In this document: positions 24,692-59,987 of the stretch, in pieces | Numbering within the stretch: the stretch's first letter is position 1 | How the letters are laid out: each line of letters begins with the position of its first letter | Assembly (NCBI GenBank): GCA_017379075.1 | Contig: JAFNXL010000027.1 | Span: 1-64,000 of the forward strand | Direction: 5' to 3' | DNA length: 64,000 nt | Source: Bacteroidaceae bacterium | Lineage (GTDB): Bacteria; Bacteroidota; Bacteroidia; Bacteroidales; Bacteroidaceae | Position numbers and translations under genes: made by a program | Notes under the pieces: generated by a model | What the model was told of the DNA's origin: nothing | Seen by the model: the letters and a program-made list of their open reading frames with translations, nothing else | Database searches by the model: none

Positions 24692-24750
24692 CTACTAATT
24701 TATAATATAAATCTGCGGTCATCTGTCACGTCTGCGTCATCAGTGTGCCA
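24264..24750. mobile_element. small nuclease-bearing element (GxxExxY) with inverted-repeat ends
   Basis: The sequence TGGCACACAGATGACACAGA... at 24264-24305 is matched, inverted, at 24709-24750 (about 33 of 42 positions by eye). It encloses only the GxxExxY gene. A partial further copy (GATGGCACGCTGATGCCGCATC on the minus strand) covers the very end of leuD at about 24781-24810. The layout parallels the DUF559 element of the same operon. No transposase was seen. Confidence 0.6.
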
Positions 24751-24795
24751 TCTCATCTAATCTGTCTTTTTCATATAACTGTCACAGATGCGGCA

Positions 24796-27590: not shown

Positions 27591-27593
27591 GTC

Positions 27594-29093: not shown

Positions 29094-29140
29094 ATTTCTT
29101 AATAATTTTAATTTTACCTTACTGATATATAAATTGCGTG

Positions 29141-29172
29141 CAAATTTACAAAATAAAAATCGCGCATACAAA
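29141..29172 (-). promoter_or_regulatory. promoter of the leucine operon
   Basis: Minus-strand TTTG at 29169-29172, then 20 nt, then TAAATTTG at 29141-29148, an exact fit to the Bacteroidetes consensus. The predicted leader to the leuA ATG at 29093 is about 40 nt. I saw no clear leucine leader peptide or T-box. Confidence 0.75.
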
Positions 29173-29232
29173 CATAATAATATAAATGTCAATTTTTTTC
29201 ACCAAAATCCGTTATGTTAGGAAAAACTTTTG

Positions 29233-44251: not shown

Positions 44252-46038
44252 TCATCAAGATTTAAAAGAGTTACTATTACTGGCATAGATATACAAGAAC
44301 GATTAATAATCTTTTGGTATAGTCGATTCTTCAAAGAGGTATTTATAGCCTTCTCAAAATTCTTTTTATCCTTAAATTTGATGGTAATATATAATCCTCG
44401 CTGGAGTCTTGTTTCACCGGCCGCTCCCTCTATCTTTAGTTCTATAAAGATACGTTTAAACTCTTCTTTACCAAATTCTGTAATTATTTCTTTACGCAAA
44501 AATGCTTCAATATCTTTTTTGGTATAAAGACGATCATTTGTTAGAGTGTAGTATCTCAAATTTTCATATCTCTCATCTACATTTGCTTTATCTGCCCCCC
44601 CCATACTTGAAACAAATATTGGAAGTTCTTTCTCTATAGATGGCAATTTCTTGTTTTCCATAGTTTCTCCCAATTTAGGAGTATTTCCCAATTTTCCTAA
44701 TGTTGATGTGAAAGATACTTTGATAGAAGAAGATTGTGGATATTGGTTCATGTTTTTCATTACATAGGCGCCACTATCAAAACTATATTTTGAATTGTGT
44801 GTACCAACACTCTTTCCAATTCTATTTATTAAATCACGTAGTTGCTTTATGGTTTCTCCATCTTTTATCCCATTATATTCAATGAAAGCATAATAATCAT
44901 CGATAAAATGATTATATATAGTTCTTACATCTCTATATAAGTTGCCTTCGTGATAGCATGACGCATCGAAGTCTCTTACAATTATATCTTCTTTAGACAT
45001 ATTGAAACCTTGTTTGTTTGCACTGTTTGAGGTTTCAATTATCTGCAAAAAGAAAGAATTGTCTTGCTTTTGTAGTTTTGCGATAGGAGTAATCTGTGTT
45101 AAAGTAACATTGTTAATATCTATATTTGTGACAGGCAACACATTAATTGTTATTGAGGTATTTTCTGGAATGACATAATCATTTTGAAATTCCAGTCTTA
45201 ACCATATAGTTGATTCATCAAAAGAATTCAGTCCTTCTTCTTCTACCCATTTTTCAAATATTTTAGGATATGCCCGTTGTTTAAATACATCTCTATCTTT
45301 AGTTTCATCAGTTATATATAGAAGAGACTTATTTCCCATGTTTGTCAAGTTATCTTTCCAATTCTCAATAATTGAAAAGAATTGACCCGATGATTGTTGA
45401 GAATCAAATGGTTCAACCATTTCAATATCCTCCATCTTTGTCATATCAGAAAATTCTAATTCATTGTCCTCAGGGCCAACAAAGATGTGTTCTGGTAAGA
45501 CTCCATTAGTTCCTTCAATAATCAGAGAAAGCCCTTTAAGAGTCTCTATTTCTGCTTTAGTATTGATTCCTATCCAAATGCAATTTGGTTTATCCATGAC
45601 AATGTCATAAATTTTATTACCAACGCATAGCTTGTGGGGGTTAAGTATATATAAATTTTGATATGGAATACATAAAGTGTTGAAAATAGGAATATAATTA
45701 ATCTGAATTTTACTATCTCCTATTTTATAAACGAAAGATGCGTTATTTCCAACTATTATTGTTTCTAAATCTTTCTTTAGCTTAAATTTTGCTTCAATAA
45801 CAGATAGCGCTGGCATAGCCTCAATTTCGCGCCTTGGTATAAAATCCTCACAGAATCTTTCAATGATTTTATCCTCAATACCATCAATGTAGTCAATTAT
45901 CTTTTGACTTTCATGTAATAATGAAACGAGCATCATTTTTGCAATTGGATCCATTAATTTAAAATCCAATTTGTCATTAGATATATTTTTAAGATATTCA
46001 ACGGCTGCGTTGATATTCTTTTCTAATTGTATGTCCAT
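44245..46038 (-). CDS. tssF: TssF-like T6SS baseplate protein
   Basis: A 597-aa protein. The N-terminus has the TssF layout: a helical opening, DPIAKMMLVSLLHESQKIIDYIDGIE, then IERFCEDFIPRREIEAMPALSVIEAKFK, where classical TssF has a ...Y-P-H-Y-L-R-P-I-P-A-M-S... block. Length matches TssF of the family. TssF and TssG form the wedge around the T6SS baseplate. It is 3 bp from the gp25-like TssE gene and overlaps the upstream-unrecognised gene by 7 bp. The assignment rests on N-terminal similarity plus company with TssE, TssG and TssK. Confidence 0.75.
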   Translation of the reverse strand: MDIQLEKNINAAVEYLKNISNDKLDFKLMDPIAKMMLVSLLHESQKIIDYIDGIEDKIIERFCEDFIPRREIEAMPALSVIEAKFKLKKDLETIIVGNNASFVYKIGDSKIQINYIPIFNTLCIPYQNLYILNPHKLCVGNKIYDIVMDKPNCIWIGINTKAEIETLKGLSLIIEGTNGVLPEHIFVGPEDNELEFSDMTKMEDIEMVEPFDSQQSSGQFFSIIENWKDNLTNMGNKSLLYITDETKDRDVFKQRAYPKIFEKWVEEEGLNSFDESTIWLRLEFQNDYVIPENTSITINVLPVTNIDINNVTLTQITPIAKLQKQDNSFFLQIIETSNSANKQGFNMSKEDIIVRDFDASCYHEGNLYRDVRTIYNHFIDDYYAFIEYNGIKDGETIKQLRDLINRIGKSVGTHNSKYSFDSGAYVMKNMNQYPQSSSIKVSFTSTLGKLGNTPKLGETMENKKLPSIEKELPIFVSSMGGADKANVDERYENLRYYTLTNDRLYTKKDIEAFLRKEIITEFGKEEFKRIFIELKIEGAAGETRLQRGLYITIKFKDKKNFEKAINTSLKNRLYQKIINRSCISMPVIVTLLNLDDC

Positions 46039-46041
46039 ATA

Positions 46042-46548
46042 TTAAATGGTTATTTTTTTTACTGTTGGTTCCATAAAGAACGTGACTCTTTTCTCATATT
46101 CTTTAACCATTCCTAAACCATCATCAATAACCCCCATAACTCTTACTGAAACTTCATATTTTGAAAATACTTTTTTCGAACTATTTTGTTTGTTTTCATC
46201 AATCGAATTTAATTCGATAAACACATCTATGTGCTTTAGTTGAGGTTCATATGTTTCCAAACTTTTTTTTATACTTTCCTGACATTCTTTTCGTGTTACA
46301 TCATTGTATAAACCATATCCTCCCATACCGGTATAGTTGTTATTGAAATCCCTATAATGAATATTTGAATACTCATGGTTCCAATACTCAAAACCAAAAT
46401 CCGGGTCTGCAGAAAAACTGCCTTTTGGTGTGAAAACAATCAACTCAACTAAATTATCCAGCATTAAAGTCACATCATCTATTTCTCTTTTAAAAGAAAC
46501 GGATAATTCGTTATTAATGAATTGGATAGGAGTATTTACAAAAGTCAT
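46042..46548 (-). CDS. tssE: TssE-like (gp25) baseplate wedge protein
   Basis: A 168-aa protein of the gp25 lysozyme-like family. The TPKGSFSADPDFGFEYWNHEY block and later IKKSLETYEPQLKHIDVFIEL match the gp25/TssE core, in which an E-P-R-L-like motif sits near the C-terminal strand. These proteins connect tail sheath to baseplate in T6SS and phages. It is flanked by TssK (2 bp) and TssF (3 bp). Both are characteristic of T6SS rather than of extracellular contractile injection systems. Confidence 0.82.
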   Translation of the reverse strand: MTFVNTPIQFINNELSVSFKREIDDVTLMLDNLVELIVFTPKGSFSADPDFGFEYWNHEYSNIHYRDFNNNYTGMGGYGLYNDVTRKECQESIKKSLETYEPQLKHIDVFIELNSIDENKQNSSKKVFSKYEVSVRVMGVIDDGLGMVKEYEKRVTFFMEPTVKKITI

Positions 46549-46550
46549 TG

Positions 46551-47765
46551 TTAGATTTCAATCCAATGTTTTACATCTTTTTGAAGCCTTACCTTATATG
46601 TATTTGTTACACTGCTAACACCATTTAAGATGGCCTTAACTTTGACAACCACATATTTGTCGTCCTCCTCTTTATCACGCCCACCAACAAAACCACTAGC
46701 AAAAATGATTGTGTTTCCTGTATTTGAAGAATTTGTGGGTTCACTGCCGTCTATTGTATAGTATATTGTTGCTCCAGGTGTATTGTTCTCTACAGGTATA
46801 CGTACCTTGCTGTTTGTACATTTTTTTAACAAGTTGGCATTTGATATTGTAGGAGCTTCAATTTGTTCTTCTGTATGCGCAAAATCCTTAAATTTTCCAA
46901 TTTTTTCACAAATAGCATTACAAAGTTCCAATCCCTCTGTTATACGATTATTAATTTCTTTGTAATTAAATGGGGCATCAATAAAATTCCTATATGTATC
47001 AGCATCCATTAAATTTAAACCTGTATCTAACGTACAGGCGCAAAAGAAACCACTAATATATTTTTGAATATTACCAAGCAACATCATTGGGGTCATTAAT
47101 TCAATATCTTTGTTTATGACAATTTTTAGTTGCTCAACTATAGGCCAAAATACACTAATAGCTGTTTTACAATCCGAATTAGTACTATCTAATAATTGCT
47201 TGTTTGAAACTTTTAATATGTTTTCAAAAGAGGTAAGATGTTTTTTATATACGGGATGTGAAGAAACATATAAGCATGGTGGTATGAAATTAATCTCATC
47301 CAATCTCCAGCCATATTCATTTATTAAACGAGCAACAGGAAACATGTCTGCCCCCAGCATAGAATTCTCTTGAAGAAGTGCAAAATTATATTCTGGTTCA
47401 CAAAATCCGTTATAAGTTTCTTTCCAAGAATCTTTAGTTTCTACACATAATATATAACAATCATCTTCATTTGATGGAATTGTTAATCTTGTGTCGTAAT
47501 TATTTGTGAATGATGTGTCGTAATTAATATCTATTATACTTCCAGATTTGGTTATAGCAAGACAATTAAGAGCCTCCACATCTATAATATTCTTATTGAC
47601 ACTTAATGAAATATTGAACTCTCTATTTGATGGCAATAAGCCAAATCTACCGTTTGACGCTAATACAAAGGCTTGATTTAATGACTCTAAATGGCATTTG
47701 TCAGAGGATTTTAAAATCTCATCTGTCAATCTCATGCCTTTTTTCCAGCATATTCTTTTTGTCAT
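46551..47765 (-). CDS. tssK: TssK-like baseplate protein with chitobiase-type C-terminal domain
   Basis: A 404-aa protein. The start ICWKKGMRLTDEILKSSDKCHL mirrors TssK's W-x-x-G-M-x-L opening, and FPVARLINEYGWRLDEINFIPPCLYV matches TssK's conserved P-V/L-A-R ... D-x-x-F-I-P-P segment. TssK links the baseplate to the membrane complex. Residues ~305-400 (IPVENNTPGATIYYTIDGSEPTNSS) look like a CHB_HEX_C Ig-type domain usually found in glycosidases, an unusual addition whose role is unknown. It lies 3 bp after TssG. Confidence 0.75.
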   Translation of the reverse strand: MTKRICWKKGMRLTDEILKSSDKCHLESLNQAFVLASNGRFGLLPSNREFNISLSVNKNIIDVEALNCLAITKSGSIIDINYDTSFTNNYDTRLTIPSNEDDCYILCVETKDSWKETYNGFCEPEYNFALLQENSMLGADMFPVARLINEYGWRLDEINFIPPCLYVSSHPVYKKHLTSFENILKVSNKQLLDSTNSDCKTAISVFWPIVEQLKIVINKDIELMTPMMLLGNIQKYISGFFCACTLDTGLNLMDADTYRNFIDAPFNYKEINNRITEGLELCNAICEKIGKFKDFAHTEEQIEAPTISNANLLKKCTNSKVRIPVENNTPGATIYYTIDGSEPTNSSNTGNTIIFASGFVGGRDKEEDDKYVVVKVKAILNGVSSVTNTYKVRLQKDVKHWIEI

Positions 47766-47768
47766 AAC

Positions 47769-48656
47769 CTATAAATTCGTATTATAATTCAGATAATTAT
47801 ATATAATGTCATCAGATACCCTAAGGGTTGGATAGTCTGAACAGAGATGAAAACATAAGTCATCTTCTACAGAAAAGAAATAATCCTTAATAAACAATCT
47901 GTACGTTTCCAACTCTTCTAAAAACAGATTGAAATGTTCTGAGCATTCCTCATCTGACCAATAATTAATCGTATATGTCGTTATATTTTCGCTAAACTGA
48001 TTTCCCAGATATATGGAATCTATTTGATAATCCGTAACTTTGTAATTATATTGTGGTTCGTTATCAAGTACTTCACTTTCTATATTTTCTTTTTTCAAAA
48101 ACAGTCCTTCTTCAAATAATACTTTCCTCAACATTAATGTTATTAAGGTGGTATTTCCCCTAATACGTTTACAGTTTGGAAGAAATGGGATTGTTCGTTT
48201 AATGAAACGATTAGATTTCTCTTTTTCAGGCAATGTATCCCCTATAATATTTTGAATGATAATATTATCAGATGCCAGTTGATTAATCTTATCTTTAACC
48301 TTTGTCTTTAAATCTAACAATAAAACATCAATTGGAGAAAAGAATTTATGAGCATTTTCTTTTTCTAATTCTTGTTTTGCATATTCTTCTGCAAATCTTT
48401 CTTTTTTTTCACGTTCTGGAATATTGTCAAATCGATTTATCGGATGAAACATATATTCCGGCAATGAATTGTACAAACCATTTCTTCCAACATGAAATTC
48501 CGTTATTCCGTCAGAGGTTTCTTCACAACTGATAATATCCTTATAAGAATTTCTTTTATGCAATCCATTAATAAAAATTCTATATGATCCTTTAGGAAGA
48601 TATGATAATATATCTTCTATATTTATATCATTAGGAAGATACTTTATCATTGTCAA
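47769..48656 (-). CDS. tssG: TssG-like baseplate protein
   Basis: A 295-aa protein. The N-terminal segment GLYNSLPEYMFHPI resembles TssG, and its length and position beside TssE, TssF and TssK fit. TssG pairs with TssF to build the baseplate wedge. It overlaps the E1 gene by 4 bp (ATGA), so the ubiquitin-activating-type enzyme and the baseplate are encoded on the same message with coupled translation. Divergence is high; confidence comes mostly from the local block and context. Confidence 0.65.
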   Translation of the reverse strand: MTMIKYLPNDINIEDILSYLPKGSYRIFINGLHKRNSYKDIISCEETSDGITEFHVGRNGLYNSLPEYMFHPINRFDNIPEREKKERFAEEYAKQELEKENAHKFFSPIDVLLLDLKTKVKDKINQLASDNIIIQNIIGDTLPEKEKSNRFIKRTIPFLPNCKRIRGNTTLITLMLRKVLFEEGLFLKKENIESEVLDNEPQYNYKVTDYQIDSIYLGNQFSENITTYTINYWSDEECSEHFNLFLEELETYRLFIKDYFFSVEDDLCFHLCSDYPTLRVSDDIIYNYLNYNTNL

Positions 48657-49864
48657 GCCAAATTAAAAATTGAGGCATCTTTAGTCAGTTCTACGAAGAA
48701 CAGCCCTTTGTCTGTAGATACTTGAATGACATCATAAAGAGGAATACCGACATCTTTTAGTGACATTTCCGGATATGGGAAATACTCGTCAATATTTTCA
48801 ATAAAACACTTATGGAACAACGTCTTGTAACTAAGTTTTCGAAGTTCTTCGTTATCCGTAATATAATCATCAAGTTTTGACTCCGGCAAGCGGATAAGAA
48901 ATTCCTTCTCTGGTTTATCAGATATTATCTTATCTATAAATTTGTTGTTTCTCATGTTGATTTCAATAGCATTAACATTAAGGAAATCCTTTAAAATTGA
49001 AAGGACTTCTTTAACTGAGTTTTCTGCTGAAAGAGAATCAATCTTAATTATATTATCCCATCTTTCATGAGCCGGACATGTAGCTTTCCATGATGCATAT
49101 TTATATGTGTTCACCGAATTGGTCAATCCTTCATATCTTAACATTTTCCCCTGAAGAGTCTTAAATGGAACCGGTTCGTCTTCTGACAGATGGATAATCT
49201 TCATCGCTTCTTGTACTTGCATAGCGCCTATAATTGAAGCACTGATTGGAGTTGTGGCTACACGGCCAGCATTGCCTTGCATCCTAAAAACATCTGCACA
49301 TCCAGTTCTAAGCATAATATTATTGAATTCTTCTCTGGAAAGTCCACATTCATAACAACTTATACCTGGAGTATAAACTCTGACCACTCCTGTCATATTT
49401 TCAATGCTTCCGTCTATCCATGTTTTTCCTGCTCTCATAGCCATTCTATTTAACAAATACCTTGCGATAATGCTATCCAGACATCCAATTATCACATCAA
49501 CGGAATTATACAATCCAAACCCTACTTCAGAAAATAGATTCCCCACAATTGGAGTCACCTTTATCTGGGGATTTATTTCCATGGCACGCTTGGCTACGAT
49601 CTCTGATTTGAAGGAATGGTTATAAGCATCTTCTTCTCTGAATAAGACAGAACGCGTAAGATTTGATATTTCTATTTTATCAAAATCCACAACATATATT
49701 TGACCAACACCGAACAATGCAAGATTCTTTACCACCTCGTTGCCCAATGCACCTGCACCAGCCACTAAAACCCGTGCGTTCCTGACCTTATCTTTTTTGA
49801 ACCAGGAGAGGAGTGTAAACACTCCATCTCCCCATTCATAAGTTTCTTTCTTTTGCATTATCAA
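48653..49864 (-). CDS. E1-like (ThiF/MoeB/UBA-type) ubiquitin-activating enzyme
   Basis: A 403-aa protein with a full E1 adenylation domain: VLVAGAGALGNEVVKNLALFG (GAGALG at 36-41), Asp60 in VDFDKIEISNLTR (ATP ribose and Arg finger), and CLDSIIARYLLNR. Zinc-type cysteines are C170 and C173 (SCYEC), with TCPAHE as a second half-site. A conserved Cys189 (TGCADVF) lies just before the ATTPISASIIGAMQVQEAMK helix, the position of the catalytic Cys in E1 enzymes. About 140 C-terminal residues are unrecognised. It should adenylate the Ubl C-terminus and pass it to the E2. It is not beside thiamine or molybdopterin genes. Confidence 0.9.
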   Translation of the reverse strand: MIMQKKETYEWGDGVFTLLSWFKKDKVRNARVLVAGAGALGNEVVKNLALFGVGQIYVVDFDKIEISNLTRSVLFREEDAYNHSFKSEIVAKRAMEINPQIKVTPIVGNLFSEVGFGLYNSVDVIIGCLDSIIARYLLNRMAMRAGKTWIDGSIENMTGVVRVYTPGISCYECGLSREEFNNIMLRTGCADVFRMQGNAGRVATTPISASIIGAMQVQEAMKIIHLSEDEPVPFKTLQGKMLRYEGLTNSVNTYKYASWKATCPAHERWDNIIKIDSLSAENSVKEVLSILKDFLNVNAIEINMRNNKFIDKIISDKPEKEFLIRLPESKLDDYITDNEELRKLSYKTLFHKCFIENIDEYFPYPEMSLKDVGIPLYDVIQVSTDKGLFFVELTKDASIFNLA

Positions 49865-49872
49865 TATTTACA

Positions 49873-50622
49873 TTAGAATACAAATCCGACATTAGCACCG
49901 ACAAATGCCCTACTGATACGATCTTTGTATACATCTTCATCCCCAGAACAATTAATCTTATATTCTCCATATATACCCACACGGAAAATTTGATTTTTTA
50001 ATGGAATATAACCTCCGAAATCTATTCTTGGAGAAATCAGGAAACCAGAAGCTTTCTCTCCTTTACGCTCACCTGTAAACACGATTTCATCAGCTTTTAA
50101 TGTTCCATATATTGTAGGGACAAGTCCTAAGCCGGCATACACAGAAGCTTTTTTATAATCCAACTTTGTAAATTCAATTGAAACAGGAATACCAGTTTCA
50201 ATCATTACGTCTTTTCTGTAACAAATCTTGTTACCTGTGTCACGATTATATTTGCCAAAAGAAAAAGCAAAGGACAGACCAGCATTCAGATATGCAACTT
50301 TTCCAATTTGTTGTTTCCAGTTTCCATTTATACCATAGATATTGGATACTCCTCTTATTGCAAATCTCGGCAGACTCATAAAGACATCTAACTCAAACCC
50401 CTGTTTGAAGGGTACAGTTTCAATTAGAGGGTTCATCATTATCGTGTCTTTTTTCAGACCAAAGTACTTATAAAGATCCACGCCATGACGAAGACGGTAT
50501 TTATATTCTCCATCTTCGTTATAATCCACTACATAAGGTCCAACTTCAAAGTTGTCAACATTTTGTGCGTATCCTGTAACAATTGTTGCCAACAGGACAG
50601 TAATCATAAATAATTTTCTCAT
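49873..50622 (-). CDS. small outer-membrane beta-barrel protein
   Basis: A 249-aa exported protein (signal ends TGYAQN) with alternating strands across its length and a terminal Phe (VGANVGFVF), consistent with an 8- to 10-stranded barrel of the OmpA-like or PorT-like type. No motif identifies a substrate. It lies between the RING protein and E1 genes with gaps of 21 and 8 bp, so it is probably an envelope part of the same system. Confidence 0.7.
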   Translation of the reverse strand: MRKLFMITVLLATIVTGYAQNVDNFEVGPYVVDYNEDGEYKYRLRHGVDLYKYFGLKKDTIMMNPLIETVPFKQGFELDVFMSLPRFAIRGVSNIYGINGNWKQQIGKVAYLNAGLSFAFSFGKYNRDTGNKICYRKDVMIETGIPVSIEFTKLDYKKASVYAGLGLVPTIYGTLKADEIVFTGERKGEKASGFLISPRIDFGGYIPLKNQIFRVGIYGEYKINCSGDEDVYKDRISRAFVGANVGFVF

Positions 50623-50643
50623 TTTATCTAATTTTATATGTTA

Positions 50644-53043
50644 TTATTCTGTTTCTTGATATAGGAAAATTGTGTCACCAATCTTAAAATTATCTCCATT
50701 TGAGAGAACCGAGGGTTTTCCAACTGGCAACTCTGCACGGGTATTATAAATTACTCCTGCAGCCAATGGTTTTAACATCGGCAACTGTTTGTCATAATCA
50801 ATATACAATTGTACATGCTCTTTGGCCACTTTATTGCTTTTCTCCCAATTCATTTGTATTTCACACTCACCAGTCATACCAATAGAAACCTTGTTTCCGC
50901 CTCCGGTTGCATTCATCCATTTGTGTATTGGAATTCTTTGTCCAGCCCTGACACCATTCTGTATGACAAGAAAATATTTTTCAGCAAGCATACGGACTGT
51001 CACAAGAGATGCTCCTAAACCACCACCATATATAATGAAATCAAGTAACATATTCATCCAACCGCTTGCGCTACTTGTTCGGCTTGAATAATACAGAACA
51101 ATAAAACCAATCAATGCAGAACATAATCCTCCAAGCAACGCACTCTTCACTGGAATTGTTGACTTGACAGTTAAAGAAAGTGATATACTTATGGAGAACA
51201 ACAAATAGGCAGGTAATGAAGAATACCACGGGATGTAAGTTGTTTCAATGACATTTAAAATATAGCACAATACCACCGCTCCGATTGCAAATGCCAACAC
51301 ACCTACTATTCCTGTCAATAAAGATAGTCCCAGAATTTTTATCCATACCTTTAAATCCTTTCTTTTATACTCATCATTATATCTGAAAATCAATGAGAGG
51401 AAAAATCCCAACAAAAGGCCTATAGTCAAAAAAGCAGAAGTCTTGTTTACACAATCCATGTGCAAAGTGGCAGTCTCTGCGTGTTCTGTATAGAACATAT
51501 TCACTAAACGCTCAGATATTACGTTAAAGAAGCCTCCGCCAAAGAACTCATAAAATATCCAACTTATAAAACCTGCTATTATACCGGAGATTGTCTGATA
51601 ACAATCTTTTAAGGCATTTAATGTTAACATTGCTTTCCATTCAATATGACTTTGGATACCAGTTTTACAGTTCTGTCCATATTCTGCGCATTTATAACCA
51701 TTTTGTTTCCAACAAAAAACATGCATTATGTGTTTACATTTTGTTACTACAAGCTGACCGGGCTGAATATCTTGTTTGCAATAATGGCATATACGTCTTG
51801 ACACATTTGCTTCAGGTACATATTTCTTATAGTATTTTACAGCAAAAGACTTGGAGCGTATGTATGGCACTAATATTTTGGCAACGGCATAAAAGAATGC
51901 AATTGTGCCTAATGTTACCAATAAAGCATATAAGTATTTCAGGGTCGCGTCCGAAGTTCTCTCCTCCCTGACTGGCCACGGTCTTTCTGCCGTACCAATG
52001 GAGAATTCTGCATTTCCTAAAATATCTTCTTTCCATTCTCCGCTGTATTTTACAATCCTTGAATAAGATTTTGATTCATCAACCTTATACCTGAAAGCAA
52101 AATCGTATTTTTCATCATTAACTTCTTCCCTTAGCGAATCAATGATGCTACTCATATCATCAGAACGCATGTATTTACCACGTGGAGCTGAATTTACCCC
52201 ATTTGAATTGCTTATACCCATCAAAGTCCTTTCCAATTCTAACCCATCTCCTTCTTCTGTATAGTAAAAAATTGTTATTTTGGGCTTTACCTGAGATAAC
52301 GAGTCCCGGAAATCGGTTACAGATGCAAAATTCAACACCTTTACAGAAGGTCGTTTGCTACCTTCCATAAAAATGAACAAATTGTTTTTGTCTTTATATT
52401 CTTTTGCTCTTTTTGATATGTTTGCATTCTTTTTATAACCTACTTCAACTTTGGCATCCGCATCTTTTTCTGTAGAAATATCAGAAAACTCAGCAAGTTT
52501 TGCATACACGGCGTCATAGAAATATTTATTCGTAACTTGATTGTAGAAATTTTCTTCATATTCTTTATAATTGTCTCTCGTTACGACATCACTTGACGTT
52601 ACACTATCTCCAAAGAAAGACAAATAGACACAACTGTCAGGTGCGCTTTCTATCAAGTTGCCAACTGCACCGTAAATCATTTCTTTTGCCTTTTGGGGAA
52701 TACTTAAATCCACCAATACAGAGAACGTACAATATTCTGGGATTCGCATCCCAGTTGTAACTATTGATACATCCGAACTTGTTTTAGCAATATAACTACT
52801 ATCCTCTATAATTCTTATATTATTCTTCAATTGTTCGGGAGTGAATGTTTTGGCATCCACACGTTCATCATACTCATCTAGCAGATTAAAAAACAATGTT
52901 ATGCTGTCTTTACCAATTTCATACTCATATTTCCTGTCACAAAATTGTATTTTAGAAACAGTCTGTGCATGAAGCAGTCCGGTAAAAGACAAAAGGCCTA
53001 ATACCGCTAACAATCTAAAATTCATCTTTTTCTTCTTGTCCAT
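50644..53043 (-). CDS. membrane vWA-RING-FHA protein, putative E3-like ligase
   Basis: A 799-aa protein. Residues 1-27 are a signal peptide; 105-260 resemble a vWA domain (FSVLVDLSIP, an incomplete MIDAS), probably periplasmic. A transmembrane helix is at ~366-392. Then Cys419, Cys422, Cys436, His438, His441, Cys444, Cys452 and Cys459 form a RING-H2-like series (C-x2-C-x13-C-x-H-x2-H-x2-C-x7-C-x6-C; the last pair is wider than usual). About six more membrane helices follow, then residues ~715-799 match an FHA domain (KEHVQLYIDYD, LSNGDNFKIGDTIFLY). RING and FHA would be cytoplasmic. Its ATG overlaps the JAB stop; 53025 is an alternative start. Confidence 0.8.
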   Translation of the reverse strand: MDKKKKMNFRLLAVLGLLSFTGLLHAQTVSKIQFCDRKYEYEIGKDSITLFFNLLDEYDERVDAKTFTPEQLKNNIRIIEDSSYIAKTSSDVSIVTTGMRIPEYCTFSVLVDLSIPQKAKEMIYGAVGNLIESAPDSCVYLSFFGDSVTSSDVVTRDNYKEYEENFYNQVTNKYFYDAVYAKLAEFSDISTEKDADAKVEVGYKKNANISKRAKEYKDKNNLFIFMEGSKRPSVKVLNFASVTDFRDSLSQVKPKITIFYYTEEGDGLELERTLMGISNSNGVNSAPRGKYMRSDDMSSIIDSLREEVNDEKYDFAFRYKVDESKSYSRIVKYSGEWKEDILGNAEFSIGTAERPWPVREERTSDATLKYLYALLVTLGTIAFFYAVAKILVPYIRSKSFAVKYYKKYVPEANVSRRICHYCKQDIQPGQLVVTKCKHIMHVFCWKQNGYKCAEYGQNCKTGIQSHIEWKAMLTLNALKDCYQTISGIIAGFISWIFYEFFGGGFFNVISERLVNMFYTEHAETATLHMDCVNKTSAFLTIGLLLGFFLSLIFRYNDEYKRKDLKVWIKILGLSLLTGIVGVLAFAIGAVVLCYILNVIETTYIPWYSSLPAYLLFSISISLSLTVKSTIPVKSALLGGLCSALIGFIVLYYSSRTSSASGWMNMLLDFIIYGGGLGASLVTVRMLAEKYFLVIQNGVRAGQRIPIHKWMNATGGGNKVSIGMTGECEIQMNWEKSNKVAKEHVQLYIDYDKQLPMLKPLAAGVIYNTRAELPVGKPSVLSNGDNFKIGDTIFLYQETE

Positions 53044-55160
53044 ATTTTTAATTCTTCTAATCTTTCTTCAGTACAATATTTATCAGACATACTCAGTTCC
53101 ATGTTGATCACAGGGATTGTGGTTATGGTTTCATCCTTAACAGAATAGAACATTACAAATTTTATCTTTGGCAAATAATCTGAAATTGCTTTTTTTATTG
53201 ATGGAATACTGCACAATGTTCCAATTACCATGCAGCCTAACAAGTCGTCATCATGCGATTTGTCTTCTTTCGACACTGAATTGACTACTAATATGTTCTT
53301 TCCGTTATATTGATTTATATACCCATGAGCCCATCCAGCCAATCCTATTTTTGTGTCTGTTGAGATAGATGATATATCTATTATTGCTCCATTACTTAAC
53401 TGTATACTTTGAATACTTCCATATACACTTTCAGCTTTTGACAAAATATTGAAATAATCATCTGATTTGTATGTGTTCCTGTCACTTTCTACAGCCCACT
53501 TATGCAACTCTTCCAAAGAATACATCTTTCTCAAATCATTAGCAGAATTGATTGAAGAATCATGTTTGAAAGTAAAGATACCAAACTCTTGTTGTGGTGT
53601 TAGTATATCCACAACAATTGCCGTCAAAAACTTAGGATGAGAAGGGTGTTTCAACTGCATTTGAACACTATTGTCAGAATTGCTGAAGAACACACCTAAT
53701 CCGGGATGTGAGTGAACCCAACAAGTTAAATCATATTGTAGATTGGTTTCTCTACGCAATTTACGCAGTTTTTCTGCTACTTTTAGTTTAATCTTTCCGC
53801 CAAAATTCAGTTCATATTCTTGGAACACGGCATCATCCCCTGGTCTGACAATTTCTTCTAACGATACATCATATTCGTTTCTGTCTTTATCAAACACCCA
53901 TCTTCCCAAGACCATACAACCGTCTTCCTTTGGGTTATCAGGGTTTCTTAAGTCATCCGCATACATGTTGTAAATGTCTTTTATACATGTATTTTTAATG
54001 TATATTCTTCTGACCGCTGAGTCGCCACAAAAATCAGTGCATTCAACTTTAAGGTATGCTTGATTACCTATCACGTCATCCAGACTTTGCTTTTTCAATA
54101 TTGATGTAGTCTTTCTTCTAACTACGATAGATGGTGACGCATTATTAGCAGACACTTGCTGGATATTAACCTGTTTGTTCTTTTGTTTTTTCTTTTTAGA
54201 TAATATTTTAAGAGCTGCTAACAATATTATTATAATTAAGCCTATAACACCTATTTGTATAAAAGCACTTTTGTCTAATTCAGTAACATCAAAAGATTCC
54301 GTTTCTTTATTAGAATCAATCACATCTTTTAGATTTAATGTAGCCTCTTCGCGTCTTGATAATTTCTCTTCTAAAATGTGCCTGATACTATCCTTGTAGT
54401 CAAAATTACTTTCTATTTTATAATCATTATATATCTTTAGGAAGTCTTCTGTTTTTTTGTCTATATTCTTTTTGTACTCTTTGATTTCTCCTCCTTTTTC
54501 CTTAATAAGCTTATTCAGTTTTTTTGCTGTTATATATTGTTCTCTATCTGTCGTTATTCCCAAAAAATCTATATGATCTTTAATTTCTTTAATATAGGCA
54601 TTTATTGAAGCATCAGACCAATACAGATCCCGCTCAAGACGCTGAATAAAAGCGTTTATTATGGACGTTCCATCCGTTTTCTTAACTTCTTGTACAATTT
54701 TGGGTATTTCTTTTCTGTCTTCTTTTACTTCTGATTTAGTTTTTGTCTTAGAAGACTTTTGTGTATCTTGCTTTTTAGAATCTGATGTTTGAGTTACAGA
54801 ATGAAATTCTTTCCATTCTTTTTTTGTATCTTCTTCATTCCATATACTCTTTCTCTGGCCTTGTGATGAACCCCCACCTATTGGGGATGCAAAAACTCTT
54901 TTACAATCTATACCGACTTCCTTCGAGCCTCCTCTTGTAATCTCAAAATCTTCATTATGCCCAGAAGGAAGTTGGTATTTTATTCGCACATCATATCCAC
55001 TTTTATTGGTGACTTTTTTCAAACGTATTACAGAATCAGAAATCAATTCTTTCTCAATCTGTATATTTTCTCTACTCACTTCCTGGGCAATGGCTAAAAA
55101 TGGCAAATGTATCATTAGCACCCCCACCAGATATCTCATTATTGTTTTTCTCATTTTCAT
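53022..55160 (-). CDS. membrane-anchored JAB/JAMM isopeptidase
   Basis: A protein of about 712 aa. It has a signal peptide, a periplasmic region, long charged coiled-coil stretches, a transmembrane helix at ~298-320 (IQIGVIGLIIIILLAALKIL) and a cytoplasmic JAB domain. The JAMM zinc site is complete: Glu412 (PKEDGCMVLG) and His483, His485 and Asp496 in HSHPGLGVFFSNSD, exactly H-x-H-x10-D. Such enzymes remove or mature ubiquitin-like proteins. The start at 55160 is one base past the previous stop; an in-frame ATG at 55193 is inside that gene. It probably deconjugates the Ubls at the membrane. Confidence 0.88.
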   Translation of the reverse strand: MKMRKTIMRYLVGVLMIHLPFLAIAQEVSRENIQIEKELISDSVIRLKKVTNKSGYDVRIKYQLPSGHNEDFEITRGGSKEVGIDCKRVFASPIGGGSSQGQRKSIWNEEDTKKEWKEFHSVTQTSDSKKQDTQKSSKTKTKSEVKEDRKEIPKIVQEVKKTDGTSIINAFIQRLERDLYWSDASINAYIKEIKDHIDFLGITTDREQYITAKKLNKLIKEKGGEIKEYKKNIDKKTEDFLKIYNDYKIESNFDYKDSIRHILEEKLSRREEATLNLKDVIDSNKETESFDVTELDKSAFIQIGVIGLIIIILLAALKILSKKKKQKNKQVNIQQVSANNASPSIVVRRKTTSILKKQSLDDVIGNQAYLKVECTDFCGDSAVRRIYIKNTCIKDIYNMYADDLRNPDNPKEDGCMVLGRWVFDKDRNEYDVSLEEIVRPGDDAVFQEYELNFGGKIKLKVAEKLRKLRRETNLQYDLTCWVHSHPGLGVFFSNSDNSVQMQLKHPSHPKFLTAIVVDILTPQQEFGIFTFKHDSSINSANDLRKMYSLEELHKWAVESDRNTYKSDDYFNILSKAESVYGSIQSIQLSNGAIIDISSISTDTKIGLAGWAHGYINQYNGKNILVVNSVSKEDKSHDDDLLGCMVIGTLCSIPSIKKAISDYLPKIKFVMFYSVKDETITTIPVINMELSMSDKYCTEERLEELKIWTRRKR

Positions 55161-55161
55161 A

Positions 55162-56358
55162 TTATATTGAAAAATTTTTAGATTTATTGCCACCAGATTG
55201 TCTGGTCTTATTATTGACTATTTTTTGCGTATTCCTCCGTGCTTTATTAACCATCTCATTCGTCTTATTTCTCGTATAATTATACGCATGTCTTTTTGCT
55301 TCATATTCTGCACGCCTTGCTATATCCTGTTGCATTTCGAACATGCTTCTTTGATTTCTGATATTCCGGAAATGTTGAAACACCTGATTTCCCACAAAAC
55401 AGACCGCAGCAAAAATCACACCACCAACAATCATCCAAATGTTTCGTTTCTTTTCTTCCTCTGCTTTTTGTTGCTGGACAAAAGCTAAAGAATCTTGGCG
55501 GGCTCGTTCTCGTTCTTTTTCCAAACGGACTAATTCTTCAGCCCTTTCACGTTCCTTTTGGGCATCTAAAGAGTTTTTTTCTTTTATTTCCTTCTCTTTA
55601 TCATCATACTGTTCTAAACAATTTTCTATTTTATTTTTTAGTTCTTTATCGTCACAACATTTTTTATATTCTTTTAGTTCTTCTCTCAATTCTTCTAATG
55701 TACGGGAAAAAGGAAGTTCGTATTCCTCTTGTAATTGTTCCTCAAATCTGTCTATTAGTTCTTGTACTTCTATGGCATATTCATTATTTGCCTCAATCTC
55801 ATAAGTGGAGGTTACTGGTTCTAATGCAATTTCATTTTTGACAACAGGTTGTGAAGTTTTAATCTTTCTTGAAAAAGAAACTTGAAAATGCTCAAATTTA
55901 CTAATCAGTTTGTACTCACTTTTTTTCTCGTAATGTGCAAAATATAGCGGAATTGATAAGGTCACTGTATCATTCCCTGTTATTAAAAAAGATAATGGGG
56001 GTGAGTCTTTTAAGAAAAAATATCCAGACTTCGATTTGGAATACGTTAAATTTGATGGAACGCTAAAAGCCTCCGGTTCAAGTCCTGTAAACATTATACC
56101 TTCATCATATCCACCAACTTTGTCAAAAAACACCACATCTACATCTTTAATTGGGTATCTTTTTCTTTTGTTTCCTCCAATTTGTTTTTTTATAACATTA
56201 TGGAATTCTATAACACCTTTATTGTCGATTACATCTATAGTATAAGTCAGGATAAAGGAATCATAACCATCTATAGATATTAAAGTATCCTTGTATTCTC
56301 TTGCGCTACAGATGGCTGTGATTCCTAAAAATAATATAATCAACTCTGATTTTTTCAT
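55162..56358 (-). CDS. exported coiled-coil membrane protein, unrecognised
   Basis: A 398-aa protein with a signal peptide, a beta-rich domain (~20-190), a long charged coiled coil (~205-305, QKERERAEELVRLEKERERAR), one transmembrane helix at ~310-330 and a basic, Asn-rich cytoplasmic tail. No family is recognised. The layout (periplasmic head, coiled coil, single membrane pass, short cytosolic tail) parallels the JAB protein encoded next and may form one envelope complex with it. Confidence 0.7.
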   Translation of the reverse strand: MKKSELIILFLGITAICSAREYKDTLISIDGYDSFILTYTIDVIDNKGVIEFHNVIKKQIGGNKRKRYPIKDVDVVFFDKVGGYDEGIMFTGLEPEAFSVPSNLTYSKSKSGYFFLKDSPPLSFLITGNDTVTLSIPLYFAHYEKKSEYKLISKFEHFQVSFSRKIKTSQPVVKNEIALEPVTSTYEIEANNEYAIEVQELIDRFEEQLQEEYELPFSRTLEELREELKEYKKCCDDKELKNKIENCLEQYDDKEKEIKEKNSLDAQKERERAEELVRLEKERERARQDSLAFVQQQKAEEEKKRNIWMIVGGVIFAAVCFVGNQVFQHFRNIRNQRSMFEMQQDIARRAEYEAKRHAYNYTRNKTNEMVNKARRNTQKIVNNKTRQSGGNKSKNFSI

Positions 56359-56359
56359 T

Positions 56360-57433
56360 TTAGAATTGACTGATTTTATTATAAAACTCTTCTATTTGAG
56401 ACTTGTATTCACTTCTTTTCCAATCTTTTCTGCGTTTGGCACAATTGTACATGGCATTTACCTTTGCCTTGTATTTTTCTTTCTCTGCTCTTTTATTGCT
56501 GCTGTTATAAATCGTCTGATAAATATCATCCAGATTGTAAGAGATTTGTGTTAAATTTGTGTTACAATACTGACAACTATGCATTTTGGGTTTAATTACA
56601 TGCTTACCGCAATCATGTTCTTTTTTTGATAAATCAATTGAGCCTAGTTTATTTTTCAGTTTATTATATGCGGTGTTTCTATTGTCATCAGACCAGCTAT
56701 ATTTCTTCAGATTTTTGTCAATTATATCCTTCAAAGAGTCTAATCTCTTTTGAAAACCACTTTTTTGTTCATCTAAAGTCGGAACGTGCTTGGCATTAGT
56801 ACAAAACATTGTATCTTTTAAGTCATTCAACAGATTATCACACTCCTTAACAATCTGATAATATTCCTCACCAACCTTTAGTTCAACATCTATCTCCAAC
56901 TCAATCGTTTCTTTCTGCTTCAACACCAATTGCTCGATGTCTTTGATTGGACCTCCTTTAAAACCTCTTATTTTTAAATCTTCTTTAGTGATATAAATCG
57001 GCAATTCAAATTTAGTTACTTCTTGATGGCGTCCAGACAAAGTCATTATCAAATCCTTTTCAGATGGCTTTAAATAGAACGGTCTTTTAATTCCATCACA
57101 AGCTTCTATCTTTCTGTTTTCTTTAGAACCAGGATAATATTTTTCATAGATTATAGAAGTTTGCATTTTTTTTAATTGCTTCTCATCATATGCTTTATCA
57201 AAGATCGATAATATTTTTGATTCATCCAGATTTTCAAGTTCAACATCTATCTTGACATCGTACTCATTATTTTCTAGTTTCTTCAATTCCAGAATAATAT
57301 TGAAATTTTCTGTTTCTATGATTTCCTTCTTATGGTCTTTATCATCTAATTTTATCGTTTTCTTTTCATCTGCATAGGCAGCCAAGACAAAGGATAAAAA
57401 TAAAATATTTATAATTGATATTCTCTTAATCAT
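56360..57433 (-). CDS. exported coiled-coil protein with zinc-ribbon-like motif
   Basis: A 357-aa protein with a signal peptide (LAAYADEK) and a largely helical, charged body. Residues ~280-305 contain DCGKHVIKPKMHSCQYCNT, whose Cys residues could form a zinc ribbon. A segment around KKYSWSDDNRNTAYNKLKNKLG resembles RDLYWSDASINAYIKEIKDHID of the JAB protein, suggesting a shared module. It overlaps the E2 gene by 4 bp, so it is part of the same message. Function unknown. Confidence 0.7.
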   Translation of the reverse strand: MIKRISIINILFLSFVLAAYADEKKTIKLDDKDHKKEIIETENFNIILELKKLENNEYDVKIDVELENLDESKILSIFDKAYDEKQLKKMQTSIIYEKYYPGSKENRKIEACDGIKRPFYLKPSEKDLIMTLSGRHQEVTKFELPIYITKEDLKIRGFKGGPIKDIEQLVLKQKETIELEIDVELKVGEEYYQIVKECDNLLNDLKDTMFCTNAKHVPTLDEQKSGFQKRLDSLKDIIDKNLKKYSWSDDNRNTAYNKLKNKLGSIDLSKKEHDCGKHVIKPKMHSCQYCNTNLTQISYNLDDIYQTIYNSSNKRAEKEKYKAKVNAMYNCAKRRKDWKRSEYKSQIEEFYNKISQF

Positions 57434-58080
57434 ATTGTTCTTGTCTTAATTACAGGTTTTACAACAATTTTTTCTTCACTCGTTTTAGTTGCTTGAGGTT
57501 CTGGACTGTCTTGGCCAAAACGTACCCAACCATTTGGTTCACCTTCTTCACGTACCCATTCGGCTACGTTTTGGTCTTCCGGATAGGGATAAGTGTTTTG
57601 AGCATGATAAAGCTGGTACTTGAGATATTGTTCTACTCGTAGAACCAGGTCTTTCAACGATGCCAGCACGCCCATTTCTTTAATCGTAAGGCATACATGC
57701 CCCTTAAAGTTTCCCGAATAACGGATATTGGGATGCCAAATGTCCGTGAGGAATGTAAATATAGGATTTCCGTCGGCCGAAGGATAGTTGTTAGGCAAGA
57801 CAATCCTCATCTTATGCAGATAGCCAAATTGGGGTTCTCTTGGTATGGTATTTCCTTTCACACCAACTATTGATTTTACACGATACCAAATATCATATTC
57901 AGTAGGCAATCCCATTACATTTTTCTTGCGGATAATATATGATAAAGAGGGTCTACGAGGATTTGCACTGGTTGCCTTACGTTTGGCACAAAGTGTATCC
58001 AGTTCCTTCCATTCTTTCCACAAACGCGCATCACGGCCGGAAAGGTCTTTCTGGTTATAATTGTTTATTGTTTCGTTCAT
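57430..58080 (-). CDS. E2-like ubiquitin-conjugating enzyme
   Basis: A 216-aa protein with a UBC fold. Diagnostic sequence is LPNNYPSADGNPIFTF, then WHPNIRY with the HPN triad at 116-118, and GHVCLTIKE with the likely catalytic Cys130, 12 residues after the HPN triad as in classical E2 enzymes. This distinguishes it from inactive UEV-type proteins. It accepts activated Ubl from E1 and would hand it to a target with or without an E3. It lies 18 bp after Ubl1 and overlaps the next gene by 4 bp. Confidence 0.9.
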   Translation of the reverse strand: MNETINNYNQKDLSGRDARLWKEWKELDTLCAKRKATSANPRRPSLSYIIRKKNVMGLPTEYDIWYRVKSIVGVKGNTIPREPQFGYLHKMRIVLPNNYPSADGNPIFTFLTDIWHPNIRYSGNFKGHVCLTIKEMGVLASLKDLVLRVEQYLKYQLYHAQNTYPYPEDQNVAEWVREEGEPNGWVRFGQDSPEPQATKTSEEKIVVKPVIKTRTI

Positions 58081-58098
58081 CTCTTCCTACTACTTTTA

Positions 58099-58425
58099 TT
58101 ATCCTGCAATAGGTACAGAAATAAGATGCAAGTGGTCACCAGGCTGAATGTTGTAATCAATCAAAGCCTGTTCACGGCCATCTGCATCTTCAAATTCAAG
58201 AATTTCAGGTTCGTCACCATCTTCCATGATTTGGCCAAGCAAGTATTGAATGGGATTTCCACCATTATCAATCTTTGGAAGTTCAAATACCGACACAATA
58301 CTACTGATTTGATCGCGTATTGTCTTGTTCGGATCTGTCACCTTTACTTCAACTTCTTCATAAGAAGTTCCATCAATAGTCAAAATAATGATAAATTCAT
58401 CATCGTAAAATTCTTCAGTTGCCAT
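58099..58425 (-). CDS. ubiquitin-like protein 1, ends in glycine
   Basis: A 108-aa acidic protein with a beta-grasp layout: two N-terminal strands (FIIILTIDGTSYEEVEVKVT), the helix DPNKTIRDQISSIVSVFEL, then further strands ending LIDYNIQPGDHLHLISVPIAG. The protein ends exactly with a single Gly, which is the form needed for adenylation by E1. It is followed by E2 in the operon. About two-thirds of its residues match Ubl2 by eye. It is not beside thiS- or moaD-type genes, so a ubiquitin role is more likely than sulfur transfer. Confidence 0.85.
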   Translation of the reverse strand: MATEEFYDDEFIIILTIDGTSYEEVEVKVTDPNKTIRDQISSIVSVFELPKIDNGGNPIQYLLGQIMEDGDEPEILEFEDADGREQALIDYNIQPGDHLHLISVPIAG

Positions 58426-58497
58426 AATTGTGCTATTTTTTAATATTTAGTCGTTATTACATATATCTATATCAAGAATTTGCAAGTATTATCTATA

Positions 58498-59565
58498 CTA
58501 ATAATACAAATGTTTATAATTGCAATAAGTCAGATGCCCATCATCATCACGAAGGTGCATTCCATTTCCCTCACACCAACGCCATGCTTCACAATCGGCA
58601 CATAATCCCTTCTTCTTCCACCCCAAATCGCGATATTGGATAAACCGATTATTCCAAACATCCACAAAGGAGTCATTATATATATTACCTTGCTTGTGGT
58701 TATATCTTATACTCAGACAGCCAGATATAGACCCATCATTTAAGATAGAAGCGACATTTACACCTGCTGCGCAGAAGTATTGATTATCTCTAACTTCATA
58801 TTCATAAGGTCCTAAAAAACCTTCACAGCCATAACTCACTTGAATCAAACTCTCATTACGAGTATCCCTAATGAAATCCAACAATTCTCGGTATTGCTCC
58901 TTACTCAACATCATATCTTCATCTTCTCGGGCTCTACCCATCGGAAATACCGTAAATATTTTCCACTTCTTCACTTTGTGGTCTATCAATGTTTGCTTAA
59001 CTTCTGCCAACTGAGAGATATTCCTTTTGTTCACACAAGTTATAACGTCCCACGTTAGATGAGAAGATGCATTAACAATCAAATCAATGGCTTCAATAGC
59101 ATCATCGTAAGACTTCCTGTTTTGGCGCATCCAATTATGTGTATCACACAATCCATCAAGACTTACTGATATTGTATTCAATCCAGATAACAGCAGATTC
59201 TTAAGTACATCTTCCTTCAAATAAGTTCCATTTGTCACTATTCCCCAGTAGAATCCACGTTTCGTGATTTCTTTACCACATTCGCATAAATCTTTCCGTA
59301 GTAGAGGCTCCCCACCTGTAGTAATCACTAAAATAGGATTATCAAAATGTGCCATTATCTCATCCAATACAGGGATGAAATCTTTTAGAGGCATATCCAC
59401 TCTATCATCATTTAGACTACAATCGCTCCCACAATGCCTACATTTGAGATTACATTTCAATGTACATTCCCAAAACAATTATTGGAGATAGCTCTTTTGT
59501 ATTCTTAGAGCATTTATTTTTCTTCCTTCCTCGAGTTTTATAATCTTACTTATATCAGTTGCCAT
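58498..59565 (-). pseudogene. SPASM radical SAM protein interrupted by one in-frame stop
   Basis: From an ATG at 59565 the frame reads MATDISKIIKLEEG ... KSYLQ, then TAA (59479-59481), then continues LFWECTLKCNLKCRHCGSDC to the normal stop at 58498. The part after the stop has a TTG that could restart (326 aa). It carries the 4Fe-4S motif CNLKCRHC (C-x3-C-x2-C) and a C-terminal SPASM-like cysteine series (CADCEAWRWCEGNG ... YCNY). Such enzymes modify peptides or mature proteins. It lies between the two Ubl genes, so a Ubl or partner may be its substrate. A single base change or sequencing error could explain the stop. Confidence 0.8.
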
Positions 59566-59603
59566 TGTAAGCAATAAAGGAGTATGCTCTCACAAATATA
59601 ACC

Positions 59604-59987
59604 TTACATTTTATTGATACAATATAGTTTCCACTCACTTTCCATCTCCATTGGGATAGGACATGCATAAGCTGGTACAGAAATAAGATATAAGTTATCT
59701 CCAAACTGTATGTTGTAATCAATCAAAGTATGTTCGCAGCCATCAGCGTCTTCAAATTCAAGAATTTCTGGTTCATCACCATCTTCCAAAATCTGTCCGA
59801 GCATATACGATATAGGACAATTCTGATTATCCGCATCGGGTAGATGAAATATAGATACAATTTTTTTGATTTGTTCACGTATTGTCTTATTGGGATCTGT
59901 AATCTTGAATTCAACACCTTCAAAAGATGTCCCATCAATAGTCAATTTGATGATGAATTCATTATTGTATAATTCTGTTTTATCCAT
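59604..59987 (-). CDS. ubiquitin-like protein 2, extended C-terminus without terminal Gly
   Basis: A 127-aa paralogue of Ubl1 (same FIIKLTIDGTSFEGVEFKITD start and EDGDEPEILEFEDADG core). After LYLISVP the sequence continues AYACPIPMEMESEWKLYCINKM to the stop instead of ending in IAG, so it has no exposed Gly. It may need cleavage by the JAB protease (no Gly-Gly is obvious), or be a decoy or decayed copy. It is the first of the Ubl/E2 run. Confidence 0.8.
   Translation of the reverse strand: MDKTELYNNEFIIKLTIDGTSFEGVEFKITDPNKTIREQIKKIVSIFHLPDADNQNCPISYMLGQILEDGDEPEILEFEDADGCEHTLIDYNIQFGDNLYLISVPAYACPIPMEMESEWKLYCINKM

Follow-up and report, generated by a model that had tools for sequence, protein, structure and literature searches.

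In the type VI secretion systems (T6SSs) described from Bacteroidota (T6SSiii), the membrane complex consists of TssNQOPR, tssN lies between tssK and tssG, and this complex is reported, whole or in part, in all 443 T6SSiii found in that study (PMC10781749). TssN carries a ubiquitin-like domain, which the same authors propose to dock the baseplate (PMC10781749). A set of Ubl-E2, E1, RING, and JAB proteins, where Ubl denotes a ubiquitin-like modifier, E1 an activating and E2 a conjugating enzyme, appears in another setting, that of vWA-MoxR conflict systems (PMC7159879). The main text of a study of three gut Bacteroidales T6SS architectures does not contain the words ThiF, ubiquitin, or JAB (PMC4714493). 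Here, we analyzed a stretch of 64,000 nucleotides (the window; positions 1 to 64,000, forward strand) from a gut Bacteroidaceae bacterium (assembly GCA_017379075.1, contig JAFNXL010000027.1), for which an earlier, sequence-based note, the original prediction, had proposed a ubiquitin-like conjugation pathway built into a T6SS-type baseplate operon at 46042–59987. The window is part of a 127,777-bp contig, and the genome comprises 3.0 Mb in 106 contigs. The pathway does lie within a T6SS operon, which is larger than had been described and reaches VgrG, two Hcp genes, TssC, TssB, and ClpV. We propose, with a probability of roughly 55%, that this locus encodes a T6SS without TssN in which Ubl conjugation would control docking to the envelope or assembly, where the conjugation, its substrate, and its control are what we infer from the sequence.

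The open reading frames (ORFs) named in the original prediction were all intact, lay on the minus strand, as do all genes of the run described below, and kept their coordinates, and neighboring genes within 46042–59987 were spaced by −22 to +125 bp. They belong to a codirectional minus-strand run of ∼38 kb, with a widest gap of 172 bp, which contains the T6SS core and extends leftward to a PP2C gene at 36812 and rightward past the window (contig positions 64001–75093) to ClpV and a NusG-like gene. Inspection of the genes to the right of 64,000 revealed, in order, the rest of a PAAR-like effector, a protein of 305 amino acids (aa), VgrG, two Hcp, TssC, TssB, and ClpV, so that the core continues on the same strand; beyond ClpV, the strand carries a 289-aa gene, a Sel1-like gene, and a NusG/UpxY-like gene, the last two named by sequence reading. 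Some details of the original layout required correction: TssF (44245–46038) lies just left of the interval rather than inside it, and the ATGA overlap assigned to the junction of E1 and tssG is found where E2 meets the gene that follows it (57430/57433). At the former junction, the E1 stop codon is TGA, and tssG starts either from TTG, giving a 4-bp TTGA overlap, or from an ATG 6 bp inside, which is 2 bp past the stop.

Pfam matches to the conjugation and baseplate proteins, other than that of E1, were under the cut-off (E2, UQ_con 4.9e-6; JAB, 0.0039; RING, 0.0018), and their identities were therefore checked through families of relatives, with residue conservation read from alignments of 75–86 sequences from which rows below a length limit had been omitted. 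The E1 (48653–49864) is a ThiF-type activating enzyme (ThiF 1.2e-49) with a C-terminal domain of ∼130 aa. Its best relatives in the PDB were UBA6, UBA7, and UBA1 (from 4.7e-20), followed by MccB (5.7e-18), with lesser matches to MoeB (1e-16), ThiF (2.6e-15), and BubCD (5.8e-8). The nucleotide-site residues were conserved in 78/78 sequences, as were C170, C173, C189, C263, and H266, and C189 is the putative catalytic Cys by its position after CxxC. For the E2 (57430–58080), the HPN motif (H116, P117, and N118) and C130 were invariant in 86/86 sequences, and the best PDB profile match was the eukaryotic E2-25K/UBE2K (2.6e-7). The RING protein (50644–53043) has a signal, a vWA-like domain, a transmembrane (TM) segment, the RING, several further TM segments, and a C-terminal FHA-like domain. 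It matched zf-RING_16 alone (0.0018); when 42 family members were scanned singly, zf-RING_2 was found in 19, FHA in 7, and VWA in 4 (at 0.01). Its eight Zn ligands were kept in 81/81 sequences, and its PDB matches were RNF165 (0.0018) and RCHY1 (0.0025). The JAB (or JAMM) protein (53022–55160) combines a signal, a TM segment at residues 299–317, and a C-terminal JAMM domain in which H483, H485, S493, and D496 were kept in 75/75 sequences; this domain matched an Rpn11-like protein (0.0015), and Rpn11 and CSN5 at 0.065 and above. Judged from hydropathy only, JAB and RING are both likely to be membrane proteins, each beginning with a signal-like segment and containing TM helices.

Two Ubls had been claimed, of which the first is the candidate modifier. 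Ubl1 (58099–58425) ends in ...VPIAG, and its relatives end in Gly in 75 of the 78 loci where one was found (the other 3 carry 1–4 residues beyond it; 2 of 80 loci were excluded, their contigs beginning at or just before E2), with G108 present in 83/83 aligned sequences. A profile of 36 sequences gave ubiquitin chains as the best PDB matches (among the best 60 of 249); the beta-grasp signal was weak, with single-domain ubiquitin at 0.008 to 0.1, the lower values stemming from repeats. Ubl2 (59604–59987) is a diverged copy, with 77% identity to Ubl1 over 306 bp, and since it has no C-terminal Gly, it does not stand as a modifier and only Ubl1 looks conjugatable. A second Ubl-like match was also seen in L085, L087, and L136 among 80 loci, within longer ORFs of 239–307 aa. 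By their catalytic and metal-binding motifs, E1, E2, Ubl1, RING, and JAMM would constitute a ubiquitin-like cascade, with the E1, E2, JAB, and RING identities of the original prediction retained.

Such a cascade might instead be an anti-phage or stress conjugation system of the Bil/Bub/CBASS kind that stands beside the T6SS by chance or in a defense island, and E1 does show partial matches to the E1–E2 models of PADLOC and to BubCD. However, E2, JAB, RING, and Ubl had no PADLOC match at 0.05, E1 and E2 are closer to eukaryotic enzymes among solved structures, and the interleaving of the two gene sets is retained across very diverged clades, as described below; we consider this explanation very unlikely.

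The T6SS core was recognized by Pfam for TssC (PF17541, 5.2e-136), the two TssD (Hcp) proteins (9.2e-33 and 5.9e-32), VgrG (VgrG domains), and ClpV (AAA_2/ClpB_D2); PF05943, the TssC model of another lineage, had no match in the genome. TssB had no TssB Pfam match and was assigned through a chain of homologs leading to the neighbor of canonical TssC. On the baseplate, Pfam was weak, with gp25/TssE (GPW_gp25) at 0.0011 and VasE/TssK at 2e-4, both below cut-off, and no relevant match for TssF or TssG. We therefore compared the four proteins with profiles from canonical Bacteroidota T6SS loci of nine relatives (six canonical sequences for TssG). The hhalign values and canonical-profile matches were 99.2% and 8.2e-24 for TssF, 98.2% and 1.5e-11 for TssE (46042–46548), 97.7% and 2.6e-8 for TssK (46551–47765), which has a C-terminal CHB_HEX_C-like extension (CHB_HEX_C_1 2.2e-8), and 98.3% and 1.3e-9 for TssG (47769–48656). 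Run against all ORFs of the window and of L003 (genomes and loci are referred to by G and L numbers), the canonical profiles picked these four genes, with one further weak ORF for TssK (17328–17675; 4.8e-4). By profile comparison, TssE, TssF, TssG, and TssK are thus members of the T6SS baseplate families, as originally named, and the region is a predicted contractile T6SS of the Bacteroidota lineage. An extracellular contractile injection system was rejected because ClpV, TssK, and VgrG indicate a T6SS.

To see how general this arrangement is, we surveyed the family (301 genomes), the order (393 genomes), and named genome contigs (the best 80 of 187 E2 relatives); the surveys share genomes (at least L079 = G033, L138 = G113, L108 = G122, L116 = G246, and L152 = G476) and are thus not independent. 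In the family, E2 was found in 10 genomes and TssC in 23, and all 10 E2 genomes had TssC, on the same contig in 9; in G006, TssC lay elsewhere and E2 was still beside TssE/F/K matches. The 13 TssC genomes without E2 comprised 8 with canonical TssC only, 4 of a clade C, and G098. In the order, E2 was found in 6 genomes, with TssC ∼5–10 kb away in 5 and none in G316, and TssC was found in 18, a count that includes the unclassed match of G570 (33.6 bits, a fragment at a contig end). Among the 80 loci, a tss, hcp, or vgrG gene lay within 10 kb of E2 in 77, so that the neighborhood survey suggested by the original prediction revealed regular colocation. Of the three others, the genome of L140 carries its TssC on a separate contig (9.9 kb), the contig of L107 spans 6.7 kb and its genome gave no TssC, and L077 is a true exception. 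The common order was ClpV, TssB, TssC, Hcp, VgrG, effector, Ubl, E2, u56360, u55162, JAB, RING, E1, TssG, TssK, and TssE, with TssG directly after E1 (−60 to 300 bp) in 63 of the 66 loci with room for it. In clade B, represented by five genomes of the family set and distinct from clade A, to which u56360 belongs, the order was E1, TssG, TssK, TssE, TssF, Ubl, E2, two unassigned proteins, and RING, and the interleaving of conjugation and T6SS genes was preserved despite this different order. The clade B TssG was also matched by profile comparison (99.6%); the Ubl of this clade matched Rad60-SLD (0.0011) and the RING protein Prok-RING_1, both below cut-off. Homology of clade A u56360 with clade B u69 was unclear (15.7% by hhalign).

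We then searched for the known membrane complex, using models for TssN, TssR, and TssP. TssN was absent from the genome of our locus and present in 9/9 genomes with canonical TssC, which served as the positive control. Across the 23 TssC-bearing family genomes, TssN and TssR were above cut-off in 9/9 canonical genomes (737–759 bits) and in 0/14 with other types only, where G246 gave a lone sub-cut-off TssN match (24.6 bits); G224 is a canonical TssC genome that also has a Ub-type system, i.e., one carrying the conjugation genes. In the order set, TssN was found in 7/9 canonical genomes and was missing from the 4 E2 genomes that this set added (including TssC-less G316), from G545, and from G627. 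Profiles of TssN, TssP, and TssR had no match in the window or L003, where those of TssK, TssF, TssE, and TssG match their genes, nor were the three found in the fetched Ub-type relatives, where the TssK, TssF, and TssE profiles match most of their genes. The TssP profile gave one match in G545 (9.8e-5). G545 and G627 (L170–L173) have T6SSs with canonical-like TssK and TssF in which no TssN or E2 was found and near which kinases and a PP2C lie.

Four proteins of the locus would be candidates for an alternative membrane complex: RING, JAB, u55162 (55162–56358), a membrane protein with one TM near residue 309 and a relative in 63/80 loci, and u56360 (56360–57433), an exported protein with a signal-like segment and a relative in 65/80 loci, the last two being candidate envelope parts. 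As diverged TssN, TssP, or TssR they were rejected, the pairs run by hhalign giving probabilities <5%, and identity of Ubl1 with the ubiquitin-like domain of TssN was likewise rejected (1.1%). The domain that known TssN bears, with its proposed role in baseplate docking (PMC10781749), would also suit a noncatalytic scaffold, in which Ubl1, RING, and JAMM form a membrane complex and conjugation is dispensable. This is highly improbable in our judgment, since the alignments show no variation in the catalytic Cys, the HPN, the JAMM residues, or the Gly, and Ubl has no sequence similarity to TssN.

We also compared pairwise distances within clade A, using 300 label shuffles. Correlations with TssG were 0.88 for E1, 0.89 for RING, and 0.88 for JAB (55 loci each), and 0.78 for E2; those with TssC were 0.86 for RING and 0.84 for E1 (24 loci each), 0.77 for JAB, and 0.61 for E2, the TssC–TssG reference being 0.81 (23 loci). 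For each TssG or TssC pairing, 0/300 shuffles were as high. Conversely, correlations with VgrG were 0.02 for E1, 0.00 for RING, 0.06 for JAB, 0.10 for E2, −0.08 for TssC, and 0.06 for TssG, values that between 39 and 212 of the 300 shuffles equaled or exceeded. As VgrG stands in the same operon and yet is uncorrelated, neighborhood alone does not force correlation. Thus, the conjugation enzymes diverge like the T6SS structural core. The same data bear on the idea that Ubl1 is put on exported parts (Hcp, VgrG, or effectors) to load them, control their quality, or deliver them into target cells. Ubl1 and E2 do follow the VgrG and effector genes where these are in reach (VgrG in 55/80 loci, an effector-like match in 58/80), but the enzyme distances do not follow VgrG (r 0.00–0.10), the RING and JAMM proteins are predicted to reside in the membrane, and E1 sits at the baseplate genes, and we regard this as quite unlikely.

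Together, the colocation and the baseplate profiles support the structural part of the original interpretation, and its proposal that modifying a tail or envelope part with Ubl may control assembly or firing fits the anatomy of the locus, the codivergence, and the missing TssN and TssR. In the mechanism that we propose, E1 would activate Ubl1 at its C-terminal Gly and hand it to C130 of E2. Because a TM segment lies ahead of the JAMM and RING domains and both proteins have a signal-like start, both catalytic domains would, by the usual topology, be cytosolic at the inner membrane; the RING protein would keep charged E2 at this cytosolic face, with its vWA-like part in the periplasm. Ubl1 would then be joined to a nearby envelope or baseplate component, such as TssK/TssG or the coencoded membrane proteins, and its attachment could promote baseplate docking or license firing, until the membrane-anchored JAMM protein strips Ubl1 and resets the site. 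The operon also encodes a membrane Ser/Thr protein kinase (41133–42458; Pkinase 1.8e-45; single TM 299–317) and a PP2C-type Ser/Thr phosphatase (36812–37717; PF00481 4.4e-17), relatives of which lie downstream of TssF in G113 and G122. The FHA-like tail of RING could sense phosphorylation by this pair, so that Ubl attachment may be phosphorylation-gated and JAMM-reversed.

Several observations weigh against this reading. The C-terminal domain of E1 had no PDB match as a ubiquitin-fold domain (UFD), leaving a UFD-like tail unconfirmed. No JAMM ORF was within reach in any of the five clade B loci (0/5), and removal is therefore not universal. Clade C (G196, G013, G168, and the short contig of G041; L055–L060) has the same T6SS core and no TssN, and showed no E1, E2, Ubl, RING, or JAB in the fetched stretches and no E2 in the genomes, indicating that a TssN-less T6SS can exist without the conjugation genes; it carries M23 peptidase, peptidoglycan-binding, zinc-ribbon-FHA, and kinase-FHA proteins. 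In G098, which has a clade A TssC, no E2 was found, and its 11-kb T6SS contig ends before the place of the conjugation genes. Most of the 80 loci are metagenome-assembled genomes (MAGs). Finally, two genomes carry the conjugation module apart from a T6SS. In G316 (L164/L174, contig 685), E1, Ubl, E2, JAB, and RING lie beside SrfB (1e-213) and Virul_Fac (1.8e-139), and the genome yielded no TssC. L077 (also L178 and L179), a Muribaculaceae MAG, has a stand-alone clade A module (E1 84%, E2 89%) accompanied by two kinases, a PP2C, and FHA-like proteins (FHA by reading), with no TssC in its 2.0-Mb genome. The module is thus separable from the T6SS.

These last two genomes are what would be expected if the module were a self-standing envelope signaling unit made up of kinase, phosphatase, FHA, RING, and Ubl and recruited by several machines of which the T6SS is the commonest, with general envelope proteins as its targets. 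G316 and L077 may, however, reflect loss or transfer, 77/80 loci are at T6SS genes with TssG directly after E1 in nearly all that have room for it, and the enzyme distances follow TssG and TssC, so that we hold this explanation to be unlikely. G316 also has another JAB and additional Ubl-like proteins with its module, the SrfB/SrfC-type genes being a different partner of the same cascade.

The E1, RING, and TssC trees share one split, of clade B with G476 versus clade A with G346. Of the 29 rows of the TssC tree, those of Ub type are spread over its three deep branches: one holds B, G476, and G540; another A with its Ub-less sister C; and the third G346, sister to the canonical sequences and G545/G627. 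Two label changes explain this tree, which would be two losses if the Ub type is ancestral. The root of the tree is unknown, long branches were flagged, G098 was labeled Ub by its clade with no E2 found, and L145 was omitted; given the root, the long branches, and the G098 label, an ancestral Ub type is a possibility and not a result. Taking this tree together with the ubiquitin-like domain fused into TssN, one could speculate, with considerable doubt, that ubiquitin-like conjugation was the older envelope attachment mode of Bacteroidota T6SSs and that the TssN complex is a derived replacement of the covalent modifier.

The remaining genes of the run are of several kinds. Leftward, the series is TssF, a 271-aa gene, a LysM glucosaminidase (42462–43442; PF01832 4.3e-34, LysM 2.1e-21) that may be a wall-opening enzyme, the kinase, an outer-membrane beta-barrel-like protein with N-terminal repeats (39229–41136; by sequence reading; 54.6% identical to a relative in G033), a 463-aa gene, and the PP2C phosphatase. 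Between E1 and RING lies an exported, outer-membrane-like protein of the conjugation module (49873–50622; by reading), which has no Pfam match and stands beside E1 also in T6SS-free L077. A radical SAM/SPASM enzyme (58498–59478; TIGR04133 8.1e-147) separates both Ubl genes, and the PAAR-like (DUF4280) nuclease effector, whose start is right of the window, occupies 62971–64000 (DUF4280 3.9e-10, Endonuclea_NS_2 4.9e-28). Hcp proteins with long C-terminal extensions occur in L017, L018, and L021 (G113, G122, and G246; 632, 760, and 1192 aa) and are possibly Hcp-fused effectors. The NusG/UpxY-like gene (L003:10518–11093; by reading) lies upstream of ClpV, has weak relatives beside ClpV in G033, G122, and G246, and may let the long operon be transcribed. 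Ordinary leucine biosynthesis genes at 22720–29192 (leuA/leuC/leuD-like by reading) are not part of the system.

Control of T6SSs by Thr phosphorylation is known from PpkA/PppA/Fha, and our locus is alike in having a kinase, a PP2C, and an FHA-like domain in one operon, the FHA-like domain here being on the RING protein. Prokaryotic operons of E1, E2, RING, JAB, and Ubl, the same five kinds of component as found here, were reportedly described by Burroughs, Iyer, and Aravind in 2011; no T6SS link is known to us from that work. We found no publication linking such a cascade to a T6SS in the open-access literature, with subscription papers and preprints mostly outside the search, and we know of no earlier case in which a eukaryote-like E1–E2–RING–JAMM cascade serves a secretion nanomachine and not defense or cofactor chemistry; if our reading is true, this would be the first known to us. 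The locus also delineates a set of Bacteroidota T6SSs for which our searches recovered no TssN-type membrane complex. As 3/80 loci come from isolates with names (Xylanibacter muris PMUR, Palleniella intestinalis PINT, and Barnesiella sp. An22), what a complete bacterial ubiquitin-like system does in its native host could be studied in culture. Compared with the T6SSiii having TssNQOPR, TssB, TssC, Hcp/TssD, VgrG, and ClpV are common to both and TssE/F/G/K are homologous, whereas our locus has no detected TssN, TssP, or TssR and has E1, E2, Ubl, RING, and JAMM (PMC10781749). The ubiquitylation operon of Caldiarchaeum subterraneum likewise has separate E1, E2, Ub, and Rpn11-like JAMM genes plus a small RING, but it is archaeal, its pro-Ub has a tail after the di-Gly, its RING is small, and the passages on it mention no secretion system (PMC5654768). 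With the Bub, Bil, and CBASS systems (PMC13373217), our locus has in common predicted bacterial Ubl activation and conjugation, and unlike them it has E1 and E2 as separate genes, together with a RING protein and a T6SS.

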